Positions 2,975 to 18,621 of a DNA stretch of 23,206 bases are shown here, one piece after another. This DNA is from a virus, in the IMG/VR virus record IMGVR_UViG_3300017767_000142, positions 1-23,206 of that record; one strand, given 5' to 3'. How positions within the stretch are numbered: position 1 is the first letter of the stretch; the number at the start of each line of letters is the position of its first letter. Both the position numbers and the translations under genes were made by a program. The notes under the pieces are model-generated. The model was given only the letters and a program-made list of their open reading frames with translations, was not told the DNA's origin and did not search any database.

Positions 2975-3003
2975 ACCTGGGTTAATACAAACAGTGAGGT
3001 TGT

Positions 3004-3270: not shown

Positions 3271-3662
3271 AAGTACGCGTTGCGATGTGGATGAATTATC
3301 ATAGTGTACCAACACGTAACTTAGTTTTTCCATATCGCGCTAAATCGCCCACATTAAAAAAATCCATTACATACACAAAAGAAGAAGTATGGAATGAGAT
3401 TGATCGCGTACTTGCAGAAGACCAAACTGGCAAATTTACACCCGGGCAACAATTATATTATAACATGCTACATTGCGCAGATTCGACCTTTTTTTATGAC
3501 AATGATGTTGTTGCACTATTAGAAGAATATCTACTGCACAAACGCTTTAATATAGCTTTATATGAATCATTAGATAATGCACTGTGCGAACGTATGTCGC
3601 TTTTTGCTGCTATTGATGAAGAGTACTTAGCAATTCAACGAATGGAAAAAGATGGCAGCTGA
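3004..3662 (+). CDS. Tail assembly chaperone, -1 frameshift fusion (gpGT-like)
   Basis: A -1 slip on A AAA AAG (3258-3264) moves ribosomes into a frame that is open from 3264 to the TGA at 3660-3662. The fusion would be 219 residues: 87 from the first frame and 132 from the second, with the junction reading KKK-ELKVRVAMWMNY. The second part alone could start at ATG 3285, but no ribosome-binding site precedes that ATG, and the downstream ORF is in exactly the frame a -1 slip reaches, with no stop between. This is the conserved G/GT arrangement of long-tailed phages, where a small fraction of fusion protein links the tape measure to tube subunits. The end overlaps the tape measure start by 11 nt. 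Confidence 0.8.
3258..3264 (+). promoter_or_regulatory. Programmed -1 ribosomal frameshift site
   Basis: The heptamer A AAA AAG is in register (zero-frame codons AAA AAG), the same sequence that drives efficient -1 slippage in E. coli dnaX. It sits two codons before the zero-frame stop. I do not see a strong downstream stem by eye. Efficiency may depend on the run of eight A residues (3256-3263) and the nearby stop. Confidence 0.8.
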
Positions 3663-5640: not shown

Positions 5641-5643
5641 ACT

Positions 5644-7815
5644 ATGGCACTTTCTCCAAGTACAAATTTTTCTAACTCTCTCAAGCGTAATAATGACATT
5701 TTTCCCATACTTACAATTGCTGGTAGTGCAACTTTATATCTTAGTACAAGAGATGTAACAGTAGAATCTCAAGCATATGATGGTAGGCTAATGAATGCAC
5801 CTAGCATCATATCTAATATTGATTTACGTAGTTTTAGTAGTAGAACAAACAATATAACATTACGCATTGCTAATGGTGGTTATGCTCCTACATTTGGCGA
5901 AAGAAATAATCAAGTGGTGACTATTTATTTTGCTTCTAATGGTACATTGTCTGCGCTTAGTGATTGCTTAAAGGTTTTTACTGGACGAATTATTGGAGTT
6001 TCAAAACTTACTGATAAAGAAATAGTTGTTAACTGTGAAGACCTTAGTGCATGGCGTGCAAATAAAATATTACAAGAACAACTTACTGACCTTGCTGGTT
6101 ATAATACGCCAGTAAAAGGCAAATTTAAGCCAATTAGCTATGGCGATTTCACTCAGAACGTTTCTACTGAGGCAAGTCCTAATCAATGTACTAGCAAAGA
6201 GTTTAGACCAGCGCATTTAATTACACATGATAGTTCATTTATTTACTATGATGAGGGTCTAAACAATGGTGGGGGTAGAGGACATATATACATACCAAGT
6301 ATTGATCGTTTTATTCCAATTGAAAACGCAACTACTGCAACATTAGAAAAATTTAACACAAATGTTATTCGCATAAATAATGTTTCAGATACAGCAAATC
6401 AGAAAACATTTTATAAAAACACAGTAAGACTATCTCCGGTTTCACATGTTGCTACTAGCGATGTTGCAAATCCTAATTTGGATTTAAACTTTACTCCAAC
6501 ATTAGCAATAAATGATGATGATGATGATTCTGTTACAATGGCAACAAGTGGTAGCGCAAGTGGCAGTCCAGCAGGAACATTAGCTGCCATGAGTGGTCAA
6601 TTAAATGGTAGTATTGCTAAAGTAGTAGCTGTAATCATTGCTGAGAATGTTGGTAACGATTTTCCGGTTGGTGTTGTAAATCTTAGTGTTGCTCACATAT
6701 ACGATAATAGTGGTAGTGATACATTATCGGGCATATCATCATCTGATTTAGAAACCGGAAATGGCTGGTCAGGCGATAACTCTTGGTCAACATTTGCAGG
6801 CAATATTAAATATGTTGTGAAAAAAGACATTACATCTGATTGGACTACTGGTTCAGTACAAGGGTATCAACCTGGGGTAAATTTAACAGATATTGTAATG
6901 GCTCTACGTATATCAGATGATAATAATATTCGCTCATTAAAAGTATATAGTATGTATTTAGATATTACGACATTTATTGAATTAGAGCAGCGCACAACAA
7001 CATATTCTAAAAAAAGTGTAAGTGAGCAAATACCTGAAACTATTTATATTGGCAAAAATGCCACGTTGCTTGAATCCGGTTATACAGAGGTTGCAGATCA
7101 CGGGCCAACTGAAGTACATGAAAATATATTAATAAACTTTGGGCCTGGAGATATCATTGATGATACTTCTCAAGCAGCAGTAGAGGGTAATTTTAATGCA
7201 GATGGTAAAGTAAGATGCACTATTGATAATCCTAGCATGACTGTACAAGATGCTTTAAATAAACTCCAACAGGAAGCAGGGTTTATAAGTTACATTAGAC
7301 CAAGTGATGGTAAGTTGTACTATCTTATTGAAGATGGCAGTAGTAAAACAATTAATGCTAATCTAACAACTGCTATGTATCGTAATCCGATCTTTGGCAC
7401 TATACCGTTAAGTAAAATGTTATGGCGTGTTAACTTTAATTATGATAAACATCCATCTACTGGTGCATATAGAACTAGTGGTGCTGCTCAAGATACGAGT
7501 ACAAAAAGCACGTATGCATTTACTGATACTAGTGGGGTAATAACACTTAATAACGACTGGGTCAATGAGTCAGAAGCAGCAACAAATTTAGTTAATCTTT
7601 TTAAATATCAACGCGTTACTGCTCAATGTGAAATATTAGACCCAAATGCATGGAAACTTGAAATTGGTGATGTAATAACTTTTAGCGATCCACCAGCAGA
7701 TTTTAGATTTCGTGATAGTAGCGCTGCATATACAGACTACCAATTTCGAATTATAGAAACAAATCGCACTGTAAATAGTTTAAAAATAAAAGCAATGGAA
7801 GTGTATAAAGCGTAA
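5644..7815 (+). CDS. Tail hub-like / large minor tail protein
   Basis: This 723-residue protein starts 3 nt after the tape measure. Its N-terminal region (about 1-150) contains NNITLRIANGGYAP and TGRIIGVSKLTDKEIVVNCED, phrases like those of distal tail and hub proteins that form the ring below the tube. The middle (about 260-440) is Ser/Asn/Asp-rich beta structure with a short Asp run near residue 297. The C-terminal region (about 515-720) has VQDALNKLQQEAGFISYIRP and LEIGDVITFSDPPADF, which resemble the domains of gp27-like baseplate hubs. It likely closes the tail tip. It overlaps the next start in a TAATG junction. The exact orthology to lambda genes is unclear to me. Confidence 0.6.
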   Translation: MALSPSTNFSNSLKRNNDIFPILTIAGSATLYLSTRDVTVESQAYDGRLMNAPSIISNIDLRSFSSRTNNITLRIANGGYAPTFGERNNQVVTIYFASNGTLSALSDCLKVFTGRIIGVSKLTDKEIVVNCEDLSAWRANKILQEQLTDLAGYNTPVKGKFKPISYGDFTQNVSTEASPNQCTSKEFRPAHLITHDSSFIYYDEGLNNGGGRGHIYIPSIDRFIPIENATTATLEKFNTNVIRINNVSDTANQKTFYKNTVRLSPVSHVATSDVANPNLDLNFTPTLAINDDDDDSVTMATSGSASGSPAGTLAAMSGQLNGSIAKVVAVIIAENVGNDFPVGVVNLSVAHIYDNSGSDTLSGISSSDLETGNGWSGDNSWSTFAGNIKYVVKKDITSDWTTGSVQGYQPGVNLTDIVMALRISDDNNIRSLKVYSMYLDITTFIELEQRTTTYSKKSVSEQIPETIYIGKNATLLESGYTEVADHGPTEVHENILINFGPGDIIDDTSQAAVEGNFNADGKVRCTIDNPSMTVQDALNKLQQEAGFISYIRPSDGKLYYLIEDGSSKTINANLTTAMYRNPIFGTIPLSKMLWRVNFNYDKHPSTGAYRTSGAAQDTSTKSTYAFTDTSGVITLNNDWVNESEAATNLVNLFKYQRVTAQCEILDPNAWKLEIGDVITFSDPPADFRFRDSSAAYTDYQFRIIETNRTVNSLKIKAMEVYKA

Positions 7816-8576
7816 TGGCACATAAGTTATACTTTGATAGTGCTGCAACGCGTGATGCCACGCTTACTGACGGCACAATTATAGAAGATAGTGGCAATGG
7901 AACATTTTCTTTTTCTTCAGGAAGTACGATAAATAATGAAGATAGAGCAATTGATTTACAGCTTACAGCAAACGTAACCAGTTTTAGTGGTAGTGCTAAT
8001 GATGCATTACAATTTGATGTAGGTGCTGCAAAGACAATTGATTTTATGGCTATATATTTTCAAAGTGGAGAGACAGATAATCTACGATTACATGCAGATG
8101 ATGCTACAAGTGGTAATACAGCAGTGCAACATAATTTTACTGACGATTTTTCTGCTGGTTGGAACATCGCATCATTTACACAAGCTAGTTATCGATATTG
8201 GATTGTAGAGGCAACAAGTGGATTTTTAAGTCCTGCTGAAATATTTTTTGGAGAAGCGCTGACATTACCAATAGATGGAAACAGTATTACAATAAAAAAG
8301 CCATTTAATTCATTTATTGCAAGTAGTTACAATAATGTGGAATACTCTAATAAAATTGATAATGAGCCAAGAGAATGGACAATACAATTGCCAATTATTA
8401 CAGTGGCAGATAAAACACAATTAGAACTATTGCAGAGTTATGATATTAATTTATATACTTTTCTTTATTATGATGAATCAGAATATCACACAGTAAGACT
8501 TGCAAAGCCATTGCGTTTTAATCAAATCGCAATTAATACTTTTTCAACCACAATAACATTGAGAGAAGAACTTTAA
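7815..8576 (+). CDS. Tail tip protein with discoidin-like domain, copy 1
   Basis: This 253-residue protein and the next (251 residues) are tandem paralogues. Shared landmarks in the same order are R-x-ATLTDGT near the N terminus, a D-x-RAID segment, ALQF-D-x-G, AIYF, W-N-I, a YW pair, EIFFG near residue 145, and a C-terminal V-R-L-x-x-PL-x-F. The first 150 residues read like a galactose-binding/discoidin fold (LQFDVGAAKTIDFMAIYF, RYWIVEATSG). If so, the protein may bind sugars at the cell surface or be a structural tail-tip adaptor. Starts and stops overlap in TAATG junctions on both sides. Receptor binding is inference. Confidence 0.55.
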   Translation: MAHKLYFDSAATRDATLTDGTIIEDSGNGTFSFSSGSTINNEDRAIDLQLTANVTSFSGSANDALQFDVGAAKTIDFMAIYFQSGETDNLRLHADDATSGNTAVQHNFTDDFSAGWNIASFTQASYRYWIVEATSGFLSPAEIFFGEALTLPIDGNSITIKKPFNSFIASSYNNVEYSNKIDNEPREWTIQLPIITVADKTQLELLQSYDINLYTFLYYDESEYHTVRLAKPLRFNQIAINTFSTTITLREEL

Positions 8577-9331
8577 TGGCTGCAACAATATACTATGATA
8601 ATTTAGGATCGCGTTCTGCTACACTAACAGATGGTACAACTGGTAGTTCTAGCTTTAGCAGTAGCAATGTCCTCAGTGATGAATTACGCGCAATTGATGG
8701 TAATATAACAGATGTAATTGGTGGCTGGACAGTAGATGAGGGTTTGCAATTTAATTTTGGCAGTGAAGTCAACCCTACATTTTGTGCCATATATAGTACA
8801 GTCGCTACTAGTAACGATATTAAGATACAGCGTGATAATGCAGCTACTGGTGCTTTTAATGGTATTGCAAATACAATAAGTGATATTGTTGTTGGTTGGA
8901 ACATCAGATCGCTTACCGCTTTACAAATGCAATACTGGACAATTAATAGCACTGTAGGAAATCTTACTGGTATATCAGAAATATTTTTTGGTAACCCATT
9001 TGAACTGCCAGTGCAACCTACGGCAAATATTATTACTTCTCATAATTTTGGCACAGAAGAAATTAAAGCACATGGCGCTAATCGTTATTATTTTAGTAAG
9101 CATAGTAACTATAAACAGTTGACATTAAGCCTTGATCATATGACAAGCGCAAACAAAACTAGTTTAGAAACATTTGCTAATACAGTTACAGACCGAGAAC
9201 CTTTTATTTATAGTGAAGATGGCACTACTGGACCATATCACTGGGTTAGGTTAGTTCGCCCACTGACATTCAAGACTGTAGCGCCTGATATTTTCTCATG
9301 TCAGGTGGTGATGAGAGAACTAACCTCTTAG
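8576..9331 (+). CDS. Tail tip protein with discoidin-like domain, copy 2
   Basis: This 251-residue paralogue of the preceding gene keeps the same landmarks (SATLTDGT, RAIDGN, GLQFNFG, AIYST, WNIRSL, QYWTINST, EIFFGNPFELP, VRLVRPLTF) but has diverged over most other positions, so the duplication is old. It is the last gene of the tail operon. The TAG stop (9329-9331) lies inside the left arm repeat of the attachment site, so the att region begins within the end of this gene. No lysis gene (endolysin or holin) is recognisable after it, which is unusual for the end of a late operon. Confidence 0.55.
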   Translation: MAATIYYDNLGSRSATLTDGTTGSSSFSSSNVLSDELRAIDGNITDVIGGWTVDEGLQFNFGSEVNPTFCAIYSTVATSNDIKIQRDNAATGAFNGIANTISDIVVGWNIRSLTALQMQYWTINSTVGNLTGISEIFFGNPFELPVQPTANIITSHNFGTEEIKAHGANRYYFSKHSNYKQLTLSLDHMTSANKTSLETFANTVTDREPFIYSEDGTTGPYHWVRLVRPLTFKTVAPDIFSCQVVMRELTS

Positions 9332-9347
9332 GTACATTTAGGTACAA
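9327..9347. repeat. Left integrase arm-type direct repeat
   Basis: A 21-bp sequence made of two tandem near-copies of a 10-mer, CTTAGGTACA then TTTAGGTACA, followed by A. The identical 21 bp recur at 9521-9541, on the other side of the tRNA fragment. Tandem decamers flanking a core are the hallmark of arm-type sites bound by the N-terminal domain of tyrosine integrases. The repeat covers the stop codon of the last tail gene. Confidence 0.75.
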
Positions 9348-9374
9348 AAAGCGCCTTTCACGACAATCTCGTAA

Positions 9375-9431
9375 GCGGACTTAAAATCCGTTGGTAGCAA
9401 TACCGTGCCGGTTCGAGTCCGGCCCCGGGTA
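9375..9431 (+). other. attP core: 3' half of a tRNA-Leu(UAA) gene
   Basis: The sequence matches a tRNA from the anticodon arm to the discriminator base. There is an anticodon stem GCGGA/TCCGT around loop CTTAAAA (anticodon TAA at 9382-9384), a long class II variable arm (TGGTAGCAATACCG), a T stem GCCGG/CCGGC around TTCGAGT, and an acceptor 3' strand CCCGGGT with A at 9431. The next bases are CAC, so CCA is not encoded. The 5' half is absent: no ACCCGGG-like strand and no D arm precede it. A tRNA 3' end carried next to an integrase is the usual attP, which rebuilds the host tRNA after integration. If the window were an integrated prophage this would be an attL/attR. The tail gene and integrase on either side favour attP. 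Confidence 0.85.
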
Positions 9432-9440
9432 CACGACGAG

Positions 9441-9466
9441 AAACCTCACTTTCAGTGGGGTTTTTT
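9441..9466 (+). terminator. Rho-independent terminator after the tRNA fragment
   Basis: AACCTCAC (9442-9449) pairs with GTGGGGTT (9455-9462) around a 5-nt loop, with one G-U pair, followed by a run of T. It lies just after the tRNA 3' end, so it may be the host tRNA terminator captured with the att core, and it would also end the tail operon transcript. Confidence 0.8.
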
Positions 9467-9490
9467 GCTATATACTCAAATTTCATAGTT

Positions 9491-9519
9491 TGGCATATTA
9501 TGGCATATTATGGAATATT
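9491..9519. repeat. Tandem decamer repeat in the attP right arm
   Basis: TGGCATATTA occurs twice in direct succession (9491-9510), followed by the related TGGAATATT (9511-9519). The array lies between the core and the right arm repeat. It could bind excisionase, an integration-host-type bending protein or integrase. Which one cannot be told from sequence. Confidence 0.6.
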
Positions 9520-9520
9520 T

Positions 9521-9558
9521 CTTAGGTACATTTAGGTACAATTATTTTTTGTACCTAA
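9521..9558. repeat. Right integrase arm-type repeats (direct and inverted)
   Basis: The 21-bp left arm repeat recurs exactly at 9521-9541, and TTGTACCTAA at 9549-9558 is the reverse complement of TTAGGTACAA, giving a third, inverted site. The inverted copy overlaps the integrase TAG stop (9555-9557). In all, five decamer sites surround the core: two on the left and three on the right. Confidence 0.75.
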
Positions 9559-10673
9559 TTTTTTGAAATAATGCTAGCAAGTGAATCATGTACCTGATTA
9601 TTTGTAGCGCGTTGTTCTGCGATGCTAATGCCAGCATAATGATTGTCAACAACTGCATCTGACTTATCACCAATACTGCGAGATGCTTGCGGTAAGTCAT
9701 GTGTCTCATTACGCAATACTTGCGCTTTCATTCTACGCAAATCATGGCAAGTGAACTCTATACCAGTAATAGCAACAATCTCATGCATAATTTTATTAAG
9801 CGCTTTATACTTCATGTCCAATGGGCGCTTATGTCCACGCTCTTTCCACTTCTTTAATATAACCATAACTGAGGGATGCACATCTACCGTTTCGCGTATT
9901 TGCCTACGTTTTTGAAGCAATTGCAGGGTATTGTTTTCAAGATTAACATGCTCCCAGTGTAATTCCTTGTATGGCTTTGTTCTTTGATAACCAGTAAGCT
10001 CATTGGCTCTAGAACCCAATACAGCAAAAAGCCACATTATATCTTTTTGGAAGTCATCTAATCCTGGATGATTAAATAAAGCATGTATTTCTTCATCGCT
10101 CCAAGTCTTATATACAATGGGTTTAAGCTCAGTATCTTTATAGCGATCGCTTTTCTTTATCACTAGTTTATGTATCAACTCTTCTTCAAATGCCCAATTA
10201 AATATATGAAGTATATCACGCAAGTAACTATCAATACCTCGCCTAGAGCGACCATGCACAAGCTCCATTTCACGTTTATAAATTGTCCATCCAGTAACTT
10301 CCATTCCAACTACATCTTTTTTCATTGTCCTAATGTCGCTCACGAATGTTGCGTCAGGAAATACCTTGCGACAACTATTCATTACTACATTGTATTTGGC
10401 TTTAGTATCAACATTGGTCATTGTGCTTAATACATTGTTTGTAAAAGCAGTAAAAACTTCACCAACAGTTATTGGTGCTTGTTGCTTATGAAGCAGGCTT
10501 TCCCAGTCCATATTATTCTTTTTAAATAATTCTACTTGCTGCCAATGTGATAATGCAATCACTGAATCATCTTTATTACTATAATATGTAGATTCCCATT
10601 TATTAGTATATGGATTTTTATATTGTACTTTATAAGTGCTTTTGCGACCGCGCACTTTATTCATGCTTGCCAT
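9555..10673 (-). CDS. int: Tyrosine-recombinase integrase
   Basis: This 372-residue site-specific recombinase would join attP to a host tRNA-Leu gene. The C-terminal catalytic domain (about 190-355) shows R222 in GSRANEL, K255 in LLQKRRQ, H310 and R313 in HDLRR, and the nucleophile Y346 in NHYAG. The usual His (or Trp) before the tyrosine is Asp here (D336 in GDKS). Residues about 65-165 form the core-binding helical domain, and the N-terminal 60 residues (RGRKSTYKVQYKNPYTNKW) resemble an arm-binding domain. The start at 10673 is supported by AGGAG 8 nt upstream. A second Met at residue 4 is less well placed. The 3' end abuts the attachment site, and it lies downstream of the repressor gene in the same direction. 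Confidence 0.95.
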   Translation of the reverse strand: MASMNKVRGRKSTYKVQYKNPYTNKWESTYYSNKDDSVIALSHWQQVELFKKNNMDWESLLHKQQAPITVGEVFTAFTNNVLSTMTNVDTKAKYNVVMNSCRKVFPDATFVSDIRTMKKDVVGMEVTGWTIYKREMELVHGRSRRGIDSYLRDILHIFNWAFEEELIHKLVIKKSDRYKDTELKPIVYKTWSDEEIHALFNHPGLDDFQKDIMWLFAVLGSRANELTGYQRTKPYKELHWEHVNLENNTLQLLQKRRQIRETVDVHPSVMVILKKWKERGHKRPLDMKYKALNKIMHEIVAITGIEFTCHDLRRMKAQVLRNETHDLPQASRSIGDKSDAVVDNHYAGISIAEQRATNNQVHDSLASIISKN

Positions 10674-10712
10674 GTGGTTGTCTCCTGCTTTTTATTGTGG
10701 TGAAATATGTGT

Positions 10713-11243
10713 TTAAGCTATGCCATTCATAAAATGTATGTTTGCTACAGCAGTTTTAGAAACCCAATCAACAAGATATTGATTCATTGCATGTACTGGC
10801 AATCCATCTTTTGTTTGGTATGTAACTGGCACTTTTAAATTATATGCGTACATAGCTCCTTTTGACAATACCATAGACTTTACAATATTAGTAGCAACTT
10901 TTAACATTGCTTTTTTTGCATCTTTTGATCTTAATAAATGTACTGGATGCTCTTTATAATTAATAGATTGACCAAAGCAAAATATATCATTTATTAACGT
11001 GTCTTTGCTATAGCCAAGTCGTTTAACTATGTAGTCAAAACTTGAAGTTGCTTTTACATATTGCATATTTACAGATAATTTTTTTAAGTCTATTTCAAAT
11101 CTGCATTCCATTGAAAATTGGTATTCTGTGTCAATTGAGTCATCCAAAGAGTTGCTATTGCTATTTTTAAGTAACCTATTTTCTGCTTTTAACTGCTTTA
11201 TCTCACTATCTTGATACTCTATCAATCTATTTTGTTGGTTCAT
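10713..11243 (-). CDS. Possible internal-start short form of the repressor-like protein
   Basis: ATG at 11243-11241 (Met89 of the long form) is preceded by ACAGGAGACTTAACC, an AGGAG with 8-nt spacing that resembles the integrase ribosome-binding site. Translation from here gives 176 residues with the coiled coil and C-terminal domain but no DNA-binding domain. Such a form could make mixed oligomers and weaken the repressor. The site also encodes Gly-Asp-Leu-Thr of the long form, so chance is possible. Confidence 0.45.
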   Translation of the reverse strand: MNQQNRLIEYQDSEIKQLKAENRLLKNSNSNSLDDSIDTEYQFSMECRFEIDLKKLSVNMQYVKATSSFDYIVKRLGYSKDTLINDIFCFGQSINYKEHPVHLLRSKDAKKAMLKVATNIVKSMVLSKGAMYAYNLKVPVTYQTKDGLPVHAMNQYLVDWVSKTAVANIHFMNGIA

Positions 11244-11507
11244 GGTTAAGTCTCCTGTGTTATTAGTTTTTACTGTATGTGGTGAAACGGCAATGCCGCC
11301 TTGATTGTACTCAATATTATATTGCATTTTCTTTGCAAACTCTGAAAGCACAGATCGTCTTAATTTTAACGAGTCTGCTTTTATCCATCGGTCAATAGTT
11401 TGCCTGGAAATGCCAGTTGATTTTTCTAGTGCCCAAGATGATTCACCGCTTTTTTGAATCATGTATTGCACTGCTAATAAATCACTTTTAAATGTCTTTA
11501 ATGTCAT
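10713..11507 (-). CDS. HTH repressor-like protein with coiled coil
   Basis: This 264-residue protein is divergent from a Cro-like gene, the position of a CI-type repressor. Residues about 8-62 form a helix-turn-helix (SSWALEKSTGISRQTIDRWI), 89-118 are a coiled coil (MNQQNRLIEYQDSEIKQLKA), and 130-264 form a separate alpha/beta domain I do not recognise. There is no LexA/CI Ser-Lys peptidase pair visible, so induction by RecA self-cleavage is not supported. The full-length start has only a weak GAGAGG site. An internal ATG at codon 89 has a far better one. Transcription would come from the promoter at 11531-11559. It may keep lysogeny, but an antirepressor or a regulator of integrase are alternatives. 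Confidence 0.65.
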   Translation of the reverse strand: MTLKTFKSDLLAVQYMIQKSGESSWALEKSTGISRQTIDRWIKADSLKLRRSVLSEFAKKMQYNIEYNQGGIAVSPHTVKTNNTGDLTMNQQNRLIEYQDSEIKQLKAENRLLKNSNSNSLDDSIDTEYQFSMECRFEIDLKKLSVNMQYVKATSSFDYIVKRLGYSKDTLINDIFCFGQSINYKEHPVHLLRSKDAKKAMLKVATNIVKSMVLSKGAMYAYNLKVPVTYQTKDGLPVHAMNQYLVDWVSKTAVANIHFMNGIA

Positions 11508-11530
11508 GTTATAAGCCTCTCAGTTAACTC

Positions 11531-11559
11531 ATATTACACGATATTCTACGTTATTCCAA
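11531..11559 (-). promoter_or_regulatory. Leftward promoter of the repressor-integrase operon
   Basis: On the minus strand, -35 TTGGAA (11559-11554) and -10 TAATAT (11536-11531) are separated by exactly 17 bp. The expected start near 11524 gives a short leader to the repressor ATG at 11507. The 102-bp gap between the divergent regulators must also hold operators. Confidence 0.7.
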
Positions 11560-11609
11560 ATTATTTCTTGTAAAAAGAAATATACTGTATTTAACTTTAT
11601 ACAACGTTT

Positions 11610-11822
11610 ATGGAGCAATTAACGACACATACCAAATTTCGCTTTCGCGGTTTACTACGTAAGCACGGTATATCTCAGCGTAAGCTTTGCAGGCTAGTTG
11701 GTATAAGTCCTGCGCTTCTTACAATGATGTTAAATGGACAAAGAACTTTTCAATTTAGGCATAGAGATAACATTGCAATGGTTCTCGGTGTAGAAGAAGA
11801 AAGTATTAACTGGAATGAATAG
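11610..11822 (+). CDS. Cro-like XRE-family HTH regulator
   Basis: This 70-residue protein is almost entirely one helix-turn-helix domain: LLRKHGISQRKLCRLVGISPALLTMMLNGQRTF (about residues 14-47) followed by NIAMVLGVEEESIN, the XRE pattern of five helices. It opens the rightward early operon opposite the repressor gene, so a Cro-like role in the lytic switch is likely. The start is forced: an in-frame TAA lies at 11592-11594 and no other start codon intervenes. No ribosome-binding site precedes the ATG. A TATACA at 11598-11603 would place transcription start at about 11610, so a leaderless message is possible. It overlaps the next gene by 8 nt. Confidence 0.75.
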   Translation: MEQLTTHTKFRFRGLLRKHGISQRKLCRLVGISPALLTMMLNGQRTFQFRHRDNIAMVLGVEEESINWNE

Positions 11823-12030
11823 ACCAATATCACCAACACAAGGTTGGCTTAGTATGACTCAAGCTGCTGATTATATAGGTATGAGCCGTAAAAGCGTTGA
11901 TAAAGCAGTAAAATTAAAAGAGCAAAACAAATGTAACGCTACGTTACGTATAAAGTACGTTGGAAATGAAAAGAGAATTTCACGTAAAAGCTTAGATGAA
12001 ACAGAAAAAATTTATACTTCTCTTAAGTAA
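11815..12030 (+). CDS. Small HTH protein, excisionase/MerR-like
   Basis: This 71-residue protein has the pattern of the winged HTH used by excisionases and HTH_17 proteins: LSMTQAADYIGMSRKSVDKAVKL (about 12-34), then a short wing (RIKYVGNEKRISRKSLDE) with basic residues. Phage excisionases are this size and often encoded early, so it could steer integrase toward excision. A second early regulator is the alternative. Its ATG overlaps the end of the Cro-like gene. It ends shortly before an inverted repeat that spans the start of the next gene. Confidence 0.6.
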   Translation: MNRPISPTQGWLSMTQAADYIGMSRKSVDKAVKLKEQNKCNATLRIKYVGNEKRISRKSLDETEKIYTSLK

Positions 12031-12032
12031 AG

Positions 12033-12106
12033 TGGGGCGGTTTCCTTCTTGTAAGCAACGTCATGTTGTGATTCTAACCTCTCAATTGAATCCTCATACC
12101 GCCCCA
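12033..12106 (+). promoter_or_regulatory. Cloverleaf-like inverted-repeat element over a start codon
   Basis: TGGGGCGGT (12033-12041) is perfectly complementary to ACCGCCCCA (12098-12106). Within the 56-nt interior, CAAC pairs with GTTG around GTCAT, and GATTC pairs with GAATC around 13 nt, so the RNA could fold as a three-way junction. The A of the next gene's ATG is the last base of the closing helix, and no ribosome-binding site precedes that ATG, so folding should limit translation. The outline recalls a tRNA (7-bp acceptor plus A), but D, anticodon and T loops do not fit. Confidence 0.5.
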
Positions 12107-12390
12107 TGATCTTTCGCGTCCACATACCAAAAGATACTGAGCAAATCAATGTAGCACGCAAAATTCGTGCATTATTAGAAAGAGCAAATGTGTATTCAAC
12201 TACATATGAACCTCAAGACGCACAAATAGGAATTAAACTTCATAAAGTACCAAGTAAAAAATTATTAGGTCAAATATTTGGCTTGATACAGAGAGGTGGG
12301 TATGAAATAGAGCAAGTGACCCCAGCTTACGCCAGGGTCACCGTTCCTGTTTCTTCACCACAAAGAAAACAGAAGACAACACAAAGTTAA
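12106..12390 (+). CDS. Small hypothetical protein of the early operon
   Basis: I do not recognise this 94-residue protein. It has an alpha/beta outline: strand IFRVHIP, helix INVARKIRALLERANVY, strand AQIGIKLHKVP, helix KKLLGQIFGLIQRGGYE and strand QVTPAYARVTVPV, followed by a basic tail (SPQRKQKTTQS). The order resembles a small ferredoxin-like or ribosome-associated fold, but no active site is visible. The ATG is the only possible start in an ORF open from 12055. It lacks a Shine-Dalgarno sequence and lies in the inverted-repeat element described above. It precedes the single-stranded DNA-binding protein by 15 nt. Confidence 0.65.
   Translation: MIFRVHIPKDTEQINVARKIRALLERANVYSTTYEPQDAQIGIKLHKVPSKKLLGQIFGLIQRGGYEIEQVTPAYARVTVPVSSPQRKQKTTQS
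12316..12341. repeat. Perfect 7-bp inverted repeat
   Basis: GTGACCC (12316-12322) and GGGTCAC (12335-12341) flank a 12-nt loop in which GC/GC can also pair. It lies near the 3' end of the small early gene, 65 nt before the single-stranded DNA-binding protein start. It could be an operator or an RNA hairpin. Its coding position makes either uncertain. Confidence 0.4.
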
Positions 12391-12405
12391 CAAAAGGAAA
12401 ACAAT

Positions 12406-12939
12406 ATGGCTAACAGTTTAAGTGGATTAGATATACCGTCAAGCGAATCAGGCGGTCTGTTTATGAAAAAGTTAGAGCAAGGTGAGAATAGAATGCGCAT
12501 ACTTACAACCCCGATACCGGGTTATGTATGGTGGCCTGAAAATGAGAATAAACCAAAACGCGTGCAAAAGCCGGGTGATATTGACACTGGCGTTAAAGAT
12601 GCAAAGTACTTTTGGTTTCTTACTATTGCTATTAATAATGAAGTAAAGTTTTTAGAAATAAAACAAAAGACTATCCTAAATCAGATAAAAGCATTATCTG
12701 ATAACAAAGAATGGGGCGAGGTGCAAGAATACGACATCACTATTACGCGTAGTGGTCACGATTTAGAGACTCAATATACAGTCGTTCCAAATCCCAAAAA
12801 GGCAATTGAAGCTGATGTAGTAAAGCAGTGGTCTTCATTAAAAGATCGCTATAACGCAGAAAATCTTTTTACCAATGGTACTCCGCTAGAACCCGGTGAA
12901 GAGAAAGCGCAAGATGAAGAAGAAGAGTTGCCATTTTGA
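12406..12939 (+). CDS. ssb: Phage single-stranded DNA-binding protein
   Basis: This 177-residue protein has the outline of phage replication SSBs: a basic/aromatic beta-rich core (YVWWPENENKPKRV near 40-53, KYFWFLTIAINNEVKFLEIKQ near 68-90) and an acidic C-terminal tail ending EEKAQDEEEELPF. The acidic tail with a terminal Phe is the shared mark of SSB proteins, including T7 gp2.5, and docks partner enzymes. It would coat single-stranded DNA for the downstream nucleases and primase-helicase. An AAGGA ribosome-binding site lies 7-8 nt before the ATG. It is not a bacterial OB-fold Ssb by sequence, so the family is phage-specific. Stop and next start overlap (TGATG). Confidence 0.75.
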   Translation: MANSLSGLDIPSSESGGLFMKKLEQGENRMRILTTPIPGYVWWPENENKPKRVQKPGDIDTGVKDAKYFWFLTIAINNEVKFLEIKQKTILNQIKALSDNKEWGEVQEYDITITRSGHDLETQYTVVPNPKKAIEADVVKQWSSLKDRYNAENLFTNGTPLEPGEEKAQDEEEELPF

Positions 12940-13241
12940 TGAACGTAGCTAAAAAAGGCTATCGTGGCGAAGTTGAGGTCAAAGAACTACTCTCTGACCT
13001 CGGCTTCGATGCCGAACGCTCTTGGGGCAGTGATGGACGCGCGTTTGGTCTTGCTAGTGATATAGACATTAAGGCAACACGTGACGATTTAGAGCTGCAT
13101 GTGCAAGTTAAACGGCGCAAAAAGATAGCAAGCTACTTAGAATTTAAAAATGCAAACCTTGTTGCTGTTCGTCAGGATCGTGGCAAGTGGGTATTTATAA
13201 TGAGCGAAGAGATGTTTAAAGATGTGCTTCGCGTGGAATAA
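12939..13241 (+). CDS. Holliday-junction-resolvase-like nuclease (PD-(D/E)xK fold)
   Basis: This 100-residue protein starts at ATG 12939 in a TGATG junction. A TTG three bases earlier would add one residue. KKGYRGEVEVKELLSDLGFD (6-25) gives the helix with catalytic Glu (E11 or E13), SDIDIKA gives D41, and LHVQVKRRKK gives Q56-x-K58. This is the order E-D-(E/Q)xK of archaeal-type Hjc resolvases and their phage relatives. It probably cuts branched recombination or replication intermediates before packaging. Gln in place of Glu is common in such phage proteins as I recall them. It is the first of three small proteins in this operon with this fold. Confidence 0.75.
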   Translation: MNVAKKGYRGEVEVKELLSDLGFDAERSWGSDGRAFGLASDIDIKATRDDLELHVQVKRRKKIASYLEFKNANLVAVRQDRGKWVFIMSEEMFKDVLRVE

Positions 13242-13392
13242 AAATATTAAATCCGAGGATACAGTTAAGAAGTTGAAACGACTGACTGATAGGTTGGCTA
13301 AACCATCCTCGGACGAAACTCCGGCATCGAAAAGCTTAATAATTAATACCCAGGTTGGCGTAGGCGGTAAGCTGCCTGATGCCGGAAAGTAA
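13222..13392 (+). CDS. Short hypothetical ORF overlapping structured repeats
   Basis: This 56-codon ORF starts at ATG 13222, inside the end of the nuclease gene (20-nt overlap), with a GAAGAG site upstream. The peptide is basic and hydrophilic: a helix IKSEDTVKKLKRLTDRLAK, then a Pro/Ser linker and VGVGGKLPDAGK. I do not recognise it. It fills what would otherwise be a 150-nt gap, but the same bases form two inverted-repeat elements (13252-13313 and 13320-13386), so the region may be an RNA element read by chance as an ORF, or both at once. Confidence 0.45.
   Translation: MCFAWNKNIKSEDTVKKLKRLTDRLAKPSSDETPASKSLIINTQVGVGGKLPDAGK
13252..13313 (+). repeat. Inverted-repeat element with 9-bp closing helix
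   Basis: TCCGAGGAT (13252-13260) pairs perfectly with ATCCTCGGA (13305-13313) across 44 nt. Inside, GGTT and AACC form a small hairpin at the 3' side and CAGT/ACTG another possible pair. Its 3' arm could instead pair (CGGA with TCCG) with the 5' arm of the next element, so the two may be mutually exclusive folds. Confidence 0.5.
13320..13386 (+). promoter_or_regulatory. Nested inverted-repeat element covering a ribosome-binding site
   Basis: TCCGGCATC (13320-13328) pairs with GATGCCGGA (13378-13386). After a symmetric 4x4 internal loop, AGCTTA (13333-13338) pairs with TAAGCT (13368-13373). The closing helix ends in GGA, which is the first half of the GGAAAG ribosome-binding site (13384-13389) of the gene starting at 13398. 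Folding would therefore hide that site. Confidence 0.5.
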
Positions 13393-13397
13393 TAGAT

Positions 13398-13592
13398 ATG
13401 ACAGTGAAACAAAAAATGATTGCAATAGTTGGCAAGGCTATTGTTGATACACTAGAAGAATATGCTAACAAGCAACCAAACCTTGCTAGTGAGACTTCAC
13501 GCTTTAAGATAATGACAGATATAATGGATAAGATAATAAGACAAATTGACAATCCAAAAGGCATGAGCGAGGGCGTGACAGATGAATTATAA
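13398..13592 (+). CDS. Small helical hypothetical protein
   Basis: This 64-residue protein is predicted to be almost wholly helical (QKMIAIVGKAIVDTLEEYANK and SRFKIMTDIMDKIIRQI), with acidic and basic residues balanced and no Cys or motif. It starts at ATG 13398, 8 nt after GGAAAG. The end (GMSEGVTDEL) overlaps the next gene by 11 nt. I do not recognise the family. Its short size and two-helix form would suit a dimeric adaptor or inhibitor, but that is only a shape argument. Confidence 0.6.
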   Translation: MTVKQKMIAIVGKAIVDTLEEYANKQPNLASETSRFKIMTDIMDKIIRQIDNPKGMSEGVTDEL

Positions 13593-14019
13593 AGAATTTA
13601 CAGAGTATAGAGACAAGTTTGTTGGTGAAGCACTAGACATTAGCGACACTAAATCAATTGAATACACTATATCTAATAAAGACAAGCACTACAACTTTAA
13701 ACACGTTGCGGACCGTTTAGGCATAACACCACAGCAAGCCATGATGGTATACGTGTTAAAACATGTAGATGCTATATGTAATGATGCTAAAACTGGCAAA
13801 CAAGTAAGCGATGAAACAGTTCGTTCACGTTGTCAGGATATAATGAATTATGCAATTCTTTATGCATCATTACACCACGAACAGAAGACAACCAAAGGTA
13901 CAAACCATGATAGTAACACTGAACGAAGTGGAGCAGAGTCTAGCGAAGCAAGTTGGAACGAAAAGAAACCAACAGAACCTCGCAAATGGAACGAACTCAA
14001 CAAAAGTAGCAAATCCTGA
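13582..14019 (+). CDS. Helical phage protein with overprinted C-terminal tail
   Basis: This 145-residue protein has a helical domain in residues 1-105 with NFKHVADRLGITPQQAMMVYVLKHVDAI and VRSRCQDIMNYAILYASL. The pattern of a KH-x-x-x-I segment followed by a D-x-x-NYA helix resembles small phage proteins related to DUF1599/MazG-like all-alpha domains, but the metal-binding Glu set is not obvious, so no activity is claimed. The last 37 residues are hydrophilic and low in complexity, and they lie in a 113-nt overlap with the next gene, read in another frame. This suggests the tail arose by overprinting or a lost earlier stop. Confidence 0.6.
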   Translation: MNYKEFTEYRDKFVGEALDISDTKSIEYTISNKDKHYNFKHVADRLGITPQQAMMVYVLKHVDAICNDAKTGKQVSDETVRSRCQDIMNYAILYASLHHEQKTTKGTNHDSNTERSGAESSEASWNEKKPTEPRKWNELNKSSKS

Positions 14020-14431
14020 TAACGATATTAATGGGTTTGCTGGCGAGTTAGCACTTGCTCGCGTTTTAAACAGTTACCCCGATTTTAGTATTGGCCCACA
14101 CAGGCGCGGTTTTGATCTTAAGATGCGTGGTAATGATGGTAAAGATGTACGCATTGATGTAAAGACAACTAGACATCAAGCAGGGTATTTAATAGCAAAA
14201 AAGTGGCGCAAGGTCGATGATTGTGACATGTATGTGCTTGTTAGCGGAACAATGCCACGTTATGAGATACAAGGGTGGGTATGGTCTGCTGAACTAGTTA
14301 ATCCTAGCAACTTATCTGATAATGGTTATGGCGAGCATTATCATATGGAACGCTCTCAATTAAGAGTATGGAAATATGGAAATACTAGATATTCAGTAGT
14401 TGATCTGTTTGATGGTGACATACTTGCATAG
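13907..14431 (+). CDS. Putative PD-(D/E)xK nuclease-fold protein
   Basis: I start this protein at ATG 13907 (174 residues), 7 nt after AAAGGT. An upstream ATG would add residues that do not look conserved. The N terminus (VTLNEVEQSLAKQVGTKRNQQN) matches a phrase I know from marine phage proteins. FAGELALARVL gives E47, RRGFDLKM gives D70, and VRIDVKTTRHQ gives D84-x-K86, the full PD-(D/E)xK order, with a DVKTT strand as in restriction-like folds. The C-terminal half is aromatic (EIQGWVWSAEL, WKYGNTRYSVVDL). It may be a nuclease acting on replication or host DNA, or a structural relative. It overlaps both neighbours. Confidence 0.65.
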   Translation: MIVTLNEVEQSLAKQVGTKRNQQNLANGTNSTKVANPDNDINGFAGELALARVLNSYPDFSIGPHRRGFDLKMRGNDGKDVRIDVKTTRHQAGYLIAKKWRKVDDCDMYVLVSGTMPRYEIQGWVWSAELVNPSNLSDNGYGEHYHMERSQLRVWKYGNTRYSVVDLFDGDILA

Positions 14432-14810
14432 TCAGAATGTTGGAACAATTGGAGAGTTGGCTGTGCGTATAGAATTAATCAAACAAGGATATAAGGTGTA
14501 TATACCTGAAGTCGATGTCGACCATGTTGATTTAATTGTAGAGCTACATAATAATTCATTTCAGCGTGTCCAAGTTAAAACAGTGACCAAGCCAACTACA
14601 GACACTGCAATACAAGTGCGCTGCGTTAAATATGTAGATAGCGGTAGGGTAGATGTGGTGGCGGTTTATTACGTGCCACAAGATAAGTGCGCATTTGTGC
14701 CTTATAACAATGAAAAGATGTTAAGCCTTGCCTTAACTACCGCAAAAAATAATCAAACATCTAAACGTATATGGTTCTACCAATACGAAAGATATCCGGA
14801 GTTTAGTTAA
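14412..14810 (+). CDS. Putative PD-(D/E)xK endonuclease, group I intron-endonuclease-like
   Basis: This 132-residue protein starts at ATG 14412, 20 nt inside the previous gene. A TTG at 14400 would add four residues. GTIGELAVRIELIKQGYKVY carries E15, VDHVDLIVEL carries D40, and RVQVKTV carries Q54-x-K56. This order and spacing resemble the PD-(D/E)xK endonucleases related to cyanobacterial group I intron homing enzymes, which also occur as free-standing phage proteins. The C-terminal half (VDVVAVYYVPQDKCAFVPY) matches the strand pattern of that family. It ends in a TAATG junction. Actual cutting activity is inference. Confidence 0.65.
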   Translation: MVTYLHSQNVGTIGELAVRIELIKQGYKVYIPEVDVDHVDLIVELHNNSFQRVQVKTVTKPTTDTAIQVRCVKYVDSGRVDVVAVYYVPQDKCAFVPYNNEKMLSLALTTAKNNQTSKRIWFYQYERYPEFS

Positions 14811-15040
14811 TGATATTAGAACATTATGCAGGAAGTGTGTCATTTGACACAGACAATCACGAAAGAAGTGATCAGATAGTCACGGCACTGCGCTATAAAG
14901 ATTTGGTAGAGAAGATACAAAACCTTATGAAGCATCGCAAAAACCCTGAAGTGCATTTTGCGTGCCATAAAATGGGTAAAAAAGAATTTGATTTAACTGA
15001 GAAACTAACAAGAGAGGTAAAAAATGCAATGGATACTTGA
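14810..15040 (+). CDS. Small hypothetical protein
   Basis: This 76-residue protein starts at a TAATG junction. It contains an acidic, strand-forming N terminus (ILEHYAGSVSFDTDNHE) and helices rich in Lys and Leu (YKDLVEKIQNLMKHRK, FDLTEKLTREVKNAM). The segment HFACHKMGKKEFD has one Cys between two His, too little for a zinc site. I do not recognise it. Its position between nuclease-like genes and a Zn-ribbon protein makes a role in DNA metabolism plausible but unproven. It overlaps the next gene by 17 nt. Confidence 0.6.
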   Translation: MILEHYAGSVSFDTDNHERSDQIVTALRYKDLVEKIQNLMKHRKNPEVHFACHKMGKKEFDLTEKLTREVKNAMDT

Positions 15041-15263
15041 GAAAAAAGCAGATAATGACCGTTTTGGTGGTCGCATATTAAGAAATAAAGAGACACGTGG
15101 GCGCAAGCTAGTAGTAGATAAGCTTATTAAGTATTGCCCATCATGCGAAAGAACGTATGAGCGAGTCAATATGGGTAACTATAACTCAAAGTTTATGTAT
15201 TACAAAAAAGGACAAATACCATCATATGGTAAAGAAAAAGTAATATGCGAGAGATGCAAGTAA
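15024..15263 (+). CDS. Small Zn-ribbon protein
   Basis: This 79-residue basic protein has two CxxC knuckles, C38-P-S-C41 and C75-E-R-C78, the second at the very C terminus. This is the layout of a zinc ribbon. The N-terminal 35 residues are basic (GGRILRNKETRGRKLVVDK) and may touch nucleic acid. AGAGG lies 5 nt before the ATG. It ends one base before the methyltransferase start, so the two are likely co-translated. A partner or DNA-targeting role for that enzyme is possible but not shown. Confidence 0.65.
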   Translation: MQWILEKKADNDRFGGRILRNKETRGRKLVVDKLIKYCPSCERTYERVNMGNYNSKFMYYKKGQIPSYGKEKVICERCK

Positions 15264-15264
15264 C

Positions 15265-16116
15265 ATGCGTTTGCTCGATTTGTTTAGTGGAATTGGTGGA
15301 TTTGCGCTTGCTGCTAAGTGGGTATGGGGTAAGGAGCTGGATATTGTTGGGTTTTGTGACATTGAAGAATATTGTCACAAGGTACTTGCAAAGAACTTTC
15401 CTAATGTGCCTATATATAAGGACATCTGTGATTTAGATGGCGCAGATTTTACTAATATTGACCTTATTACTGGTGGTTTCCCTTGCACTGATATTAGCCA
15501 GGCTGGTGCTGGTAAAGGACTAATTGATGAGTCAGGAAAAAGAACTAGGTCAGGTCTTTGGTTTGAAATGCACCGTCTCATTAGCGAGATACGACCAAGA
15601 TTTGCACTCATTGAGAACGTACCAATGCTCACTGCTAGGGGCGGAACACGAGTTATTGCAGACCTTGCCCAAATCGGGTACAATGCAGAATGGACGATTA
15701 TCGGAGCAGACGATGTTGGAGCTTGGCACAGAAGAAAAAGAATATGGATCGTTGCCTACCCGGAACAACTTCCCAACACCAACGGTGTCGGATGTGTTCA
15801 CGGCCAATCTAAAGAGCAGTCAGCAGAAAGAAGGGTCACTTCATTCGGTAACATTAAGTCAGGCCGTGCATATGAAGAAACTTTTTCCAACGCTGACAGC
15901 GAACGAGGACGCAGCAGGCACTCCAAACGGAAAAATGCAGCGAATGCTGGGCAACTGCGAAGAAGTAAGAAATTCGGGGGATGGCGTACTGAACCCAAAC
16001 TGGGTAGAGTGGCTCATGGGATACCCAATCGGGTGGACAGACTTAAAGGATTAGGAAACGCTATTGTACCACAAGTAGCACAATTAATAATGGAGAAATT
16101 ATATGGGAAAATTTAG
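15265..16116 (+). CDS. dcm: DNA (cytosine-5) methyltransferase
   Basis: This 283-residue C5 methyltransferase transfers methyl from SAM to cytosine in DNA. Motif I is FSGIGGF (7-13), motif IV is GGFPCTDIS with the nucleophile C74, motif VI is ENV (117-119), motif VIII is HRRKRIW (155-161), and motif X is GLGNAIVPQVA (262-272), so all core motifs are present. The target-recognition segment (about 165-255) is short and basic and ends with EPKLGRVAHGIPNRVDRLKG, a phrase typical of phage Dcm proteins. It probably protects phage DNA from host restriction. No paired restriction enzyme is obvious. Much of the gene, from 15527 to 16054, is also open in a second frame that reads as another protein. 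Confidence 0.9.
   Translation: MRLLDLFSGIGGFALAAKWVWGKELDIVGFCDIEEYCHKVLAKNFPNVPIYKDICDLDGADFTNIDLITGGFPCTDISQAGAGKGLIDESGKRTRSGLWFEMHRLISEIRPRFALIENVPMLTARGGTRVIADLAQIGYNAEWTIIGADDVGAWHRRKRIWIVAYPEQLPNTNGVGCVHGQSKEQSAERRVTSFGNIKSGRAYEETFSNADSERGRSRHSKRKNAANAGQLRRSKKFGGWRTEPKLGRVAHGIPNRVDRLKGLGNAIVPQVAQLIMEKLYGKI
15527..16054 (+). CDS. Overlapping gene in the +1 frame inside dcm
   Basis: This 175-codon ORF lies wholly within dcm. It starts at ATG 15527, 7 nt after AAAGGA (15514-15519), a good ribosome-binding site inside dcm. The product reads as a protein family I know from phage methyltransferase loci: SLARYDQDLHSLRTYQCSLLG (18-38), LPKSGTMQNGRLSE (47-60), two PTxT repeats (NFPTPTVSD at 81-89 and LFPTLTANED at 119-128), and the closing LNPNWVEWLMGYPIGWTDL (155-173). 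Noise in an alternative frame should not yield such phrases, so I regard it as a real second gene. A frameshifted relic of a dcm extension is the alternative. Function is unknown. Confidence 0.65.
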   Translation: MSQEKELGQVFGLKCTVSLARYDQDLHSLRTYQCSLLGAEHELLQTLPKSGTMQNGRLSEQTMLELGTEEKEYGSLPTRNNFPTPTVSDVFTANLKSSQQKEGSLHSVTLSQAVHMKKLFPTLTANEDAAGTPNGKMQRMLGNCEEVRNSGDGVLNPNWVEWLMGYPIGWTDLKD

Positions 16117-16756
16117 TTTACATGGCACAAAATATATTAACGAAGAGGGTAAGCGCGTACCAAGCGTAACCACTATTATTAATGGGCATCTTGGCTGGAA
16201 TAAGCAGGCACTACTTGGCTGGACAAAACGTATGATGCTTGGTGGCCAGGATAGCGACAAGGTTTTAAGTGAGGCTGGTGATATCGGTACATTACTTCAT
16301 TTGCTTATTGAGGGGCATCAGCAAGGCTTTGATGTTGATACAAAAGATTATAGCTATAACCAGGAAAAAGCTGCGATGAAAGCATTTGCAGGGTATTTGC
16401 AGTGGTATGAGAAAAGAAAGTTCAAGTCACTTGCAAATGAATTGGTTTTAGTCAATGAAGAATTGCAAGTAGGCGGTACAATTGACTCTATTGGTAAGAT
16501 GGGTGATGACTTAGTAGTAGTTGACTGGAAAACGAGTAAGTATTTGTATGCAGAAAATAAGATCCAATTAAGTGCCTATTGTTATATGTATGAACAAGCA
16601 CAACCCAAGGCTAAGATATCACATGGTCTTGTGATGCGCTTTGGTAAGGATGACGGCAAATTTCATCAGCACGTTATCAAGAGAGAAAAATTAGAAACCG
16701 GGATTGAAGTATTTAAGGCGCTTGTAAAAATCTCGCAACTCAAATCCCAGCTTTGA
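16103..16756 (+). CDS. RecB/Cas4-like PD-(D/E)xK exonuclease
   Basis: This 217-residue protein has the order of motifs seen in phage exonucleases of the RecB/Cas4 group: an N-terminal SVTTIINGHL phrase, H66 in GTLLHLLIEG, D128 in VGGTIDSIG, D141-W-K143 in VVVDWKTSK, and Q155 in IQLSAYCYMYEQ. No four-Cys iron-sulphur cluster is present, so it is closer to plain PDDEXK_1 phage exonucleases than to Cas4. It likely resects DNA ends for recombination together with the SSB. GGAG lies 8 nt before the ATG. It overlaps the end of dcm by 14 nt and the primase-helicase start by 4 nt. Confidence 0.8.
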   Translation: MGKFSLHGTKYINEEGKRVPSVTTIINGHLGWNKQALLGWTKRMMLGGQDSDKVLSEAGDIGTLLHLLIEGHQQGFDVDTKDYSYNQEKAAMKAFAGYLQWYEKRKFKSLANELVLVNEELQVGGTIDSIGKMGDDLVVVDWKTSKYLYAENKIQLSAYCYMYEQAQPKAKISHGLVMRFGKDDGKFHQHVIKREKLETGIEVFKALVKISQLKSQL

Positions 16757-18621
16757 TACGCCCATCAGAGGTTTTCTCTGAAATCAACTCAGGTGGGAAA
16801 CGTGCGCGCTGTCCTGATTGTGCTGATGGCAAGAAGAATTACAATGTACAGATAGAGCCGGACCATGCATTCTGCCATAAGTGTACGAAGACCTGGAGGT
16901 TTGATAACGATAAACCATATACTAATGGTGAGATAGAGCCGCCAACTGTAAAAGAAAAAACATATGTGAAAAGTAGCGGAGCTGTAAAAAATTCAGGATT
17001 TGTAGAAAACCGTGCAAATTTCTTAGCACACTGGAAGAAAGTTAAGAAAGACTTAGAGCTGCCGTGGAATTTAGAATCTAGGCGTGACAAGTTTGGTATA
17101 GGTGTGCGTAATAATGATAATGAAATGCAGTTAGTATTTCGCATTACAGATAATCATATAAAAAGACATAAGGGTGAGCAGTTTGGCGATGCAGAATGCA
17201 AAATTTACCCTGACATAGCAGATATAAAACCCGACAGTACGCTACTTATCTGTGAGGGAGAAAAGGATGTCGTTAGTGCCTCATGTTATGGATTCCCGGC
17301 CATAACATTTACTAGTGGTGCTAACGGCATTCCTAAAGATATTAGCGTTTTAGAGCCGTTTAAAAGTATTGTTATTTGCTATGATAGTGATGAAAGTGGC
17401 CGTAAAGGTGCAAAAAAACTGGCAAATGAATTGTACCATGTGGACCGTAATATAAAAATACTAGAATTAGATGATAATATGGACATAACTGACTATTTTT
17501 TGGCCGGTAATAGTGCTATAGAGCTAAACATACTTATACATAGTGCTAAAGTGTTTGGTGATGATCCTGGTGACTTCGGTGGTGACCCAGTGTATAATGT
17601 GCTTGATTTTATTGACACATTTCAAGATGAAGTAAAATATATATGTGATGAGATACTACTTGAAGATGGTAGGACTAGCGTTGCTGGTGGTACAAATGTA
17701 GGCAAAAGCTTATGGGCCTTACAATTTGCGTTGTGCGTTGCGATGGGTGTGCCTTTTATGAGCTTTAATGTGCCAAGGCCGAGGCGTGTGCTCCTTGTAC
17801 AGTTTGAGATGATGGATAGCATGATGACGCAACGTATTACTTCTATGATGAACGCACTACTTGATAAGTATCCGGACCGCAAACACTTACTTGGTAAAAA
17901 CCTACATATTATTAGTGCGGACCAAAAGAAATTGTTTGAAGACTCATATGTGAAGATTGAGGGCAATCTTAAAGCTACAAAAAACCCTTACGAGGTGCTT
18001 ATTATAGATAATCTATATACTAGTACGCAAGTAGATACGGTCAAAAACGATCAGTTACGTAGCTTACTTGAGACTATTGAGTCAATAAAGAAGCGTTATC
18101 AATTAGCTGTGATGATGGTAGCGCATCATAAAAAGATTAGTGAGAAGCAAGTACCAATTGATACTGCTATGGTGTTTGGTGGTTCTTTTTACTGTAACTG
18201 GCTTGACAATCTTATACAGCTTGCTGGAACGTTTAATGATAAGTTAAAAGTAATGAAGATCACAAAGACCAGGACAAATAGCGAGTTTCACAACTTACCG
18301 CTTGGCATCAAGCTTACAGATGATGATGAGCGTAATCATTTATTATATGAGTATTTGCAGCCACTACCAAAAGGTGAGGTGTTTTGGTATCGCGAACAAG
18401 AAAATTCCGATGAGGACCGCGTGCTTGAAAACATAGCGAGCCAAGGTGACAATTTTACATATGAGGATATGCGTTTAAGCCTAAAAGAAACATTAAACAT
18501 TACTAGCAGTAATTCTATAAGCAGATGGCTTAAAAAGTTATTAAAACAGCAAAGAATAATAAAGATTGAACGCGGAATATATGCAAAGAATCGTACAGAT
18601 TTAGATGCATTGCTTAATTAA
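16753..18621 (+). CDS. DNA primase-helicase
   Basis: This 622-residue fusion would prime and unwind phage DNA. Residues 20-44 form a zinc finger (C20, C23, C41, C44). The TOPRIM domain (about 160-240) has Glu in LLICEGEKD and DSDESG. A RecA-like ATPase follows with Walker A GGTNVGKS (near 312-319) and Walker B VLIIDNLY (near 415). The last 70 residues (SISRWLKKLLKQQRIIKIERGIYAK) look like a winged helix. The arrangement resembles T7 gp4/Twinkle-like proteins, with a RepA-type ATPase. The start is TTG at 16753, overlapping the previous stop (TTGA). No ATG lies between it and the zinc finger, so TTG is needed to keep the finger. Confidence 0.9.
   Translation: MIRPSEVFSEINSGGKRARCPDCADGKKNYNVQIEPDHAFCHKCTKTWRFDNDKPYTNGEIEPPTVKEKTYVKSSGAVKNSGFVENRANFLAHWKKVKKDLELPWNLESRRDKFGIGVRNNDNEMQLVFRITDNHIKRHKGEQFGDAECKIYPDIADIKPDSTLLICEGEKDVVSASCYGFPAITFTSGANGIPKDISVLEPFKSIVICYDSDESGRKGAKKLANELYHVDRNIKILELDDNMDITDYFLAGNSAIELNILIHSAKVFGDDPGDFGGDPVYNVLDFIDTFQDEVKYICDEILLEDGRTSVAGGTNVGKSLWALQFALCVAMGVPFMSFNVPRPRRVLLVQFEMMDSMMTQRITSMMNALLDKYPDRKHLLGKNLHIISADQKKLFEDSYVKIEGNLKATKNPYEVLIIDNLYTSTQVDTVKNDQLRSLLETIESIKKRYQLAVMMVAHHKKISEKQVPIDTAMVFGGSFYCNWLDNLIQLAGTFNDKLKVMKITKTRTNSEFHNLPLGIKLTDDDERNHLLYEYLQPLPKGEVFWYREQENSDEDRVLENIASQGDNFTYEDMRLSLKETLNITSSNSISRWLKKLLKQQRIIKIERGIYAKNRTDLDALLN

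Follow-up and report, generated by a model that had tools for sequence, protein, structure and literature searches.

Does the cytosine methyltransferase (dcm) gene of this virus contain a second protein-coding gene in another frame, and what would the second protein contribute? The question comes from a sequence-only reading of the window, the 23,206-nucleotide stretch covering positions 1 to 23,206 of IMG/VR virus record IMGVR_UViG_3300017767_000142. Our analysis indicates that the two frames very probably encode a single C5-cytosine DNA methyltransferase (C5-MTase) as two polypeptides, alpha and beta, from nested genes, and that the enzyme would methylate phage DNA. The features of the locus are listed in Table 1.

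Table 1. Features of the proposed alpha and beta subunit genes in the window.
Feature	Position	Strand	Remarks
Alpha subunit gene, frame 1	15265..16116	+	283 aa, stop included; C5-MTase motifs I-VIII and X
Beta subunit gene, frame 2 (+1 relative to alpha)	15527..16054	+	175 aa, stop included; recognition segment and motif IX
AAAGGA, candidate Shine-Dalgarno site for beta	15514..15519	+	Within the GKG codons of alpha, 7 nt upstream of ATG
Beta residues 79-147, predicted target-recognition segment, two PTxT motifs	15761..15967	+	Conserved beyond alpha
Beta motif IX, LNPNWVEWLMGYPIGWTDL	15989..16045	+	Near-invariant columns L155-T171 in 94 relatives
Alpha residues 170-250, unconserved, predicted disordered, replacing the small domain	15772..16014	+	AF2; 72 relatives
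Alpha motif X and C-terminal helix, RLKGLGNAIVPQVAQLIMEKLYGKI	16039..16113	+	G264 and N265 invariant

Read from the window sequence, the beta frame is open throughout from ATG 15527 to the stop at 16054. Codon shuffles that preserve the alpha protein and its codon usage leave frame 2 open in 0 of 2000 cases (mean 7.1 stops). In the converse shuffle, with beta fixed, alpha stays open in 0.2%. Therefore, the open frame 2 is not due to chance. The features that the sequence-only reading described at this locus all stand: both open reading frames, the AAAGGA at its distance from the ATG, the PTxT repeats, and the bases shared by the two ends. FPTPT, FPTLT, and LNPNWVEWLMGYPIGWTDLKD are found in beta. 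VDRLKGLGN of alpha and GWTDLKD of beta are the same bases read in two frames, and the stop of beta falls within motif X of alpha. Searched separately, the two translations match two families of phage proteins, as had been anticipated. Alpha matches PF00145 (6e-42, covering positions 1-220 of the 324-position profile) and phrog_363 (9e-73). Beta matches phrog_1008, 'DNA methyltransferase' (5e-15), as well as 85 phage records by tblastn, and is without any match in Pfam or NCBIfam.

The two frames divide the motifs of a C5-MTase between them. Alpha possesses motifs I-VIII, including the PC nucleophile, ENV, and RxR, in agreement with its membership of PF00145. Motif IX and the recognition domain are absent from alpha and present in beta. 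The consensus of alpha from 72 relatives is conserved to motif VIII, continues with about 75 unconserved positions, and ends with WxxEPxxGRVAxGxPxRVDRLKxLGNAIVPQ, which includes motif X. In the AF2 model of alpha, the block means are 92-98 at residues 1-160 and 86-96 near the C-terminus, and pLDDT is 42-58 at residues 171-250. Foldseek aligns this model to M.HaeIII and M.HhaI, and the sequence match with M.HhaI stops at motif VIII. Beta carries PTPxxxD-like motifs and a near-invariant GxLNPxWVEWLMGxPIGWTDL (94 relatives). Because AF2 gives a poor model for beta by itself (pLDDT 62, pTM 0.25), we infer the fold of beta from the sequence order. A PDB profile search with the beta alignment returned nothing relevant. 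On a forced fusion of frame 1 and frame 2 (P0001), Pfam and NCBIfam matches reach no further than on alpha, and the fusion is not correctly alignable with relatives. Since frame 2 holds the recognition segment and motif IX lacking in frame 1, the best reading is a single enzyme of which the two proteins are complementary subunits.

Both frames are under constraint. The shuffle test was split by region and calibrated. In the regional codon shuffles, the median z is 5.5 for alpha and 2.9 for beta over motifs IV-VIII, 0.8 for alpha and 3.4 for beta over the recognition region, and 2.2 for alpha and 3.3 for beta over motif IX. For calibration, alpha residues 5-84, where there is no beta, give z of about 0 in both other frames. 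The recognition and motif IX region gives z of 5.4 for the +1 frame and 3.7 for the +2 frame; the +2 frame is also raised because any extra nucleotide constraint lifts all frames. Synonymous-codon conservation was calculated as an observed/expected ratio in 72 relatives. The ratio is 1.03 both before beta and after its stop. Inside beta, it is 1.34 at motifs IV-VIII, 1.59 in the recognition region (few comparable columns), and 2.43 at motif IX. Excess synonymous conservation is thus limited to the span of beta and is the clearest of the constraint results. Together with the shuffle tests, it bears out the suggestion that both frames are coding; synonymous change is reduced over the overlap, and changes in frame 2 are constrained.

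The nested layout extends to nearly every relative. In the first 12 loci examined from the beta tblastn search, the match lies in the +1 frame of the dcm ORF in 12 of 12. To avoid sampling on beta, the query was limited to alpha residues 1-87, upstream of the overlap, and viral contigs were searched with it alone. Of the 80 loci in this sample, two are cut by the contig end, 77 have beta in +1, and one (L150) is broken, giving 77 of 78 informative loci. Bacterial and archaeal genome assemblies, where loci were found with the beta alignment, give 80/80 in +1. Over all samples, beta lies in +1 in 249 of 250 loci, a count that includes some contigs twice, so the loci are not all independent. The pair is therefore widespread in phage dcm genes, as the sequence-only reading had guessed. 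Relatives have no general stops in frame 2, and sequencing error cannot account for about 250 loci. L150 has an insertion of about 0.6-0.7 kb in the alpha gene at motif VIII, which breaks both alpha and beta (L150:2960-3580); no Rfam intron family was found there.

Relatives with other layouts indicate what beta corresponds to. The order of modules in the single-chain and split relatives is I-VIII, recognition, IX, and X. In the single-chain actinophage enzymes L264, L265, and L266, the catalytic motifs, recognition segment, IX, and X are in one frame; Spartoi gp40 covers positions 3-321 of 324 of PF00145. In the split relatives L007, L009, L064, and L076, alpha stops after motif VIII and beta carries IX and X, which read LNPDWVEWLMGYDRGWTDL...EPEDIPRVAKGKKNRAKRLKGLGNAVLPQ in L064. 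EricB and EagleEye have the two parts annotated as neighbouring genes without overlap, although the open frame of the second gene extends into the first. In the split enzymes, the EPxxGRVAxG..RVDRLK linker comes right after the motif IX segment; in the nested form, one stretch of bases encodes both. This superimposition indicates that beta is the missing small domain and not an unrelated protein. The earlier description of the locus as an overprinted gene pair is thus correct in that there are two real coding frames, but they are not two separate methyltransferases, because beta holds the recognition segment and motif IX that alpha lacks. Likewise, an alternative dcm architecture does exist, in that relatives carry the same segments in one frame or in split genes, but frame 2 is no relic of it.

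Several loci depart from these layouts. In L045 (1124-2058), the first motifs of alpha are in frame with beta, and alpha contains a degenerate VADGIPTRMDR (motif IX DNA read in the alpha frame) and a separate EPEGIPRVATGVKDRVHRLKGLGN linker. It was considered as a natural fusion and rejected, since it looks like a frame-disrupted copy; an intermediate form or a one-base indel is possible. L262, on a plasmid of Candidatus Megaera polyxenophila (2685-3710), has the recognition segment in the beta frame and IX and X in the alpha frame, a mixed layout that reflects an indel or an intermediate form. L259, a candidate stand-alone beta gene, proved to be a nested pair with the beta frame alone annotated, and no stand-alone beta gene was found among the loci examined. 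In Gordonia phage Ailee (L269:886-1284), an HNH endonuclease is annotated inside a joined two-piece methyltransferase gene; out-of-frame HNH insertions in phage methylases have been described (PMC11855218).

From these data, the working of the enzyme can be outlined. Alpha would supply the catalytic domain, with AdoMet binding, the PC nucleophile, ENV, and motifs VIII and X. Beta, which would be initiated internally at ATG 15527, would supply the small domain, with the target-recognition segment and motif IX. Together, the two polypeptides would form an active methyltransferase acting on phage DNA, plausibly as a means of evading host restriction.

Instead of initiating separately, the frame-2 recognition segment could be joined to the catalytic half of alpha by a programmed +1 ribosomal frameshift past motif VIII, giving an active transframe fusion. 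The single-chain relatives indicate that the fused order is functional in principle, and synonymous conservation is high just past motif VIII, with a ratio of 2.24 at alpha residues 166-185. However, such a fusion of the nested form would be without motif X, which sits in frame 1. The start of beta also bears on this point. In this window, the codons of alpha by themselves yield a start and a Shine-Dalgarno (SD) site in 59% of shuffles, so the SD-like site alone is weak evidence. Across 192 loci, a start with an SD in the beta frame is observed in 95, compared with 61.7 +/- 5.6 expected, a moderate excess, and an in-frame beta ATG precedes the recognition segment in 203 of 207 loci. On this sequence evidence, separate initiation of beta is favoured over frameshifting, which we consider improbable.

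Beta could also be a protein with a function of its own, overprinted on a methyltransferase that is complete without it, as a conserved frame 2 with its own start might suggest. This is very unlikely: alpha is without motif IX or a conserved recognition region, and these are precisely the parts of the single-chain methyltransferases to which beta is homologous. Finally, frame 2 could be an echo of conserved alpha sequence, or a decaying relic without a product. In favor of an echo or relic, the N-terminal profile of beta matches the +1 frame in single-chain enzymes as well; in L264, L265, L266, and L268-L270, that frame scores above codon-shuffled controls (z 2.6-5.2). The signal in single-chain enzymes may have been left by a nested ancestor or may reflect a constraint not yet recognised. 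The N-terminal third of beta, which overlaps alpha motifs IV-VIII, may in part be a relic or be subject to a different constraint. Because the signal recurs in single-chain enzymes, this third is not counted as proof of function or nesting. However, the recognition region is conserved in frame 2 and unconstrained in alpha, the signal of the calibrated test and the synonymous constraint begin and end with beta, and frame 2 is present in essentially all relatives. An echo or relic is therefore highly improbable, and the suggestion in the sequence-only reading that frame 2 is a relic falls away. Nested genes for two complementary subunits remain the preferred reading.

A layout of this kind has a precedent. 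Lee, Kam and Shaw are said to have described in 1995 an EcoHK31I small-chain gene of similar size inside the large-chain gene, in another frame; nesting of this kind is seen directly in the window and its relatives. M.AquI and M.EcoHK31I each consist of two polypeptides (PMC3404938). M.EcoHK31I, a C5-MTase specific for YGGCCR (Lee, Kam and Shaw 1995, as described in PMC3404938), carries motifs I-VIII and X in its large chain and motif IX in its small chain, and its TRD is predicted to lie in the large chain (PMC3404938). Compared by layout, the window resembles M.EcoHK31I in that alpha has I-VIII and X and beta has IX. It differs in that the recognition region is constrained in the beta frame (z 3.4 compared with 0.8) and disordered in the alpha model, although the TRD placement in EcoHK31I is itself a prediction. 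The window resembles M.AquI in having two chains with I-VIII in alpha, and the four split relatives share the M.AquI layout; unlike M.AquI, in which X is with IX in the small chain, the window has X in alpha, and its overlap is a complete nesting. Single-chain actinophage C5-MTases (Rothia phage Spartoi gp40 and Mycobacterium phage Estave1 gp75) have the same catalytic motifs, recognition segment, IX, and X, but their modules are in one continuous frame.

Judged from sequence comparison, the layout known from the E. coli restriction-modification enzyme proves to be the rule across a large and widespread family of phage methyltransferases. The breadth of the layout and target recognition in beta appear to be the new part, the kind being already known. 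No account of this for phages was found in the literature searched, which largely excluded subscription journals. A wider reading, which we offer tentatively, is that a recognition subunit nested in a catalytic subunit is standard and ancient in a large phage C5-methyltransferase family, occurring in phages as well as in archaeal genomes and those of many bacterial phyla, with the IX and linker segments superimposed and with beta, not alpha, setting the target. If true, a target set by beta would overturn the TRD assignment made for M.EcoHK31I.

The locus is a clean case of long conserved dual-coding DNA, and because single-chain, split, and nested relatives all occur naturally, ideas on how overlapping genes evolve can be tested directly on them. 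It also affects annotation. Among 13 annotated nested loci, alpha alone is listed in nine, beta alone in three, and both in one, indicating that what many records annotate as 'phage Dcm' is one half of an enzyme. Where E. coli sequences match the Salmonella phage S9-5 homologue, their annotation shows one 'DNA cytosine methyltransferase', accompanied in two cases by a neighbouring gene. PHROG families 363 (alpha) and 1008 (beta), both labelled DNA methyltransferase, match the proteins of the window, but PHROG treats them as separate families, with no indication that one locus encodes both in different frames. Specificities guessed from the variable region of alpha have probably been read in the wrong frame.

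The surroundings of the locus in the window are phage-like (3652-18621), with a tape-measure protein at 3652-5640 and an integrase on the minus strand at 9555-10673. An exonuclease gene (16103-16756) begins inside the 3' end of alpha and is followed by a primase/helicase gene (16753-18621).
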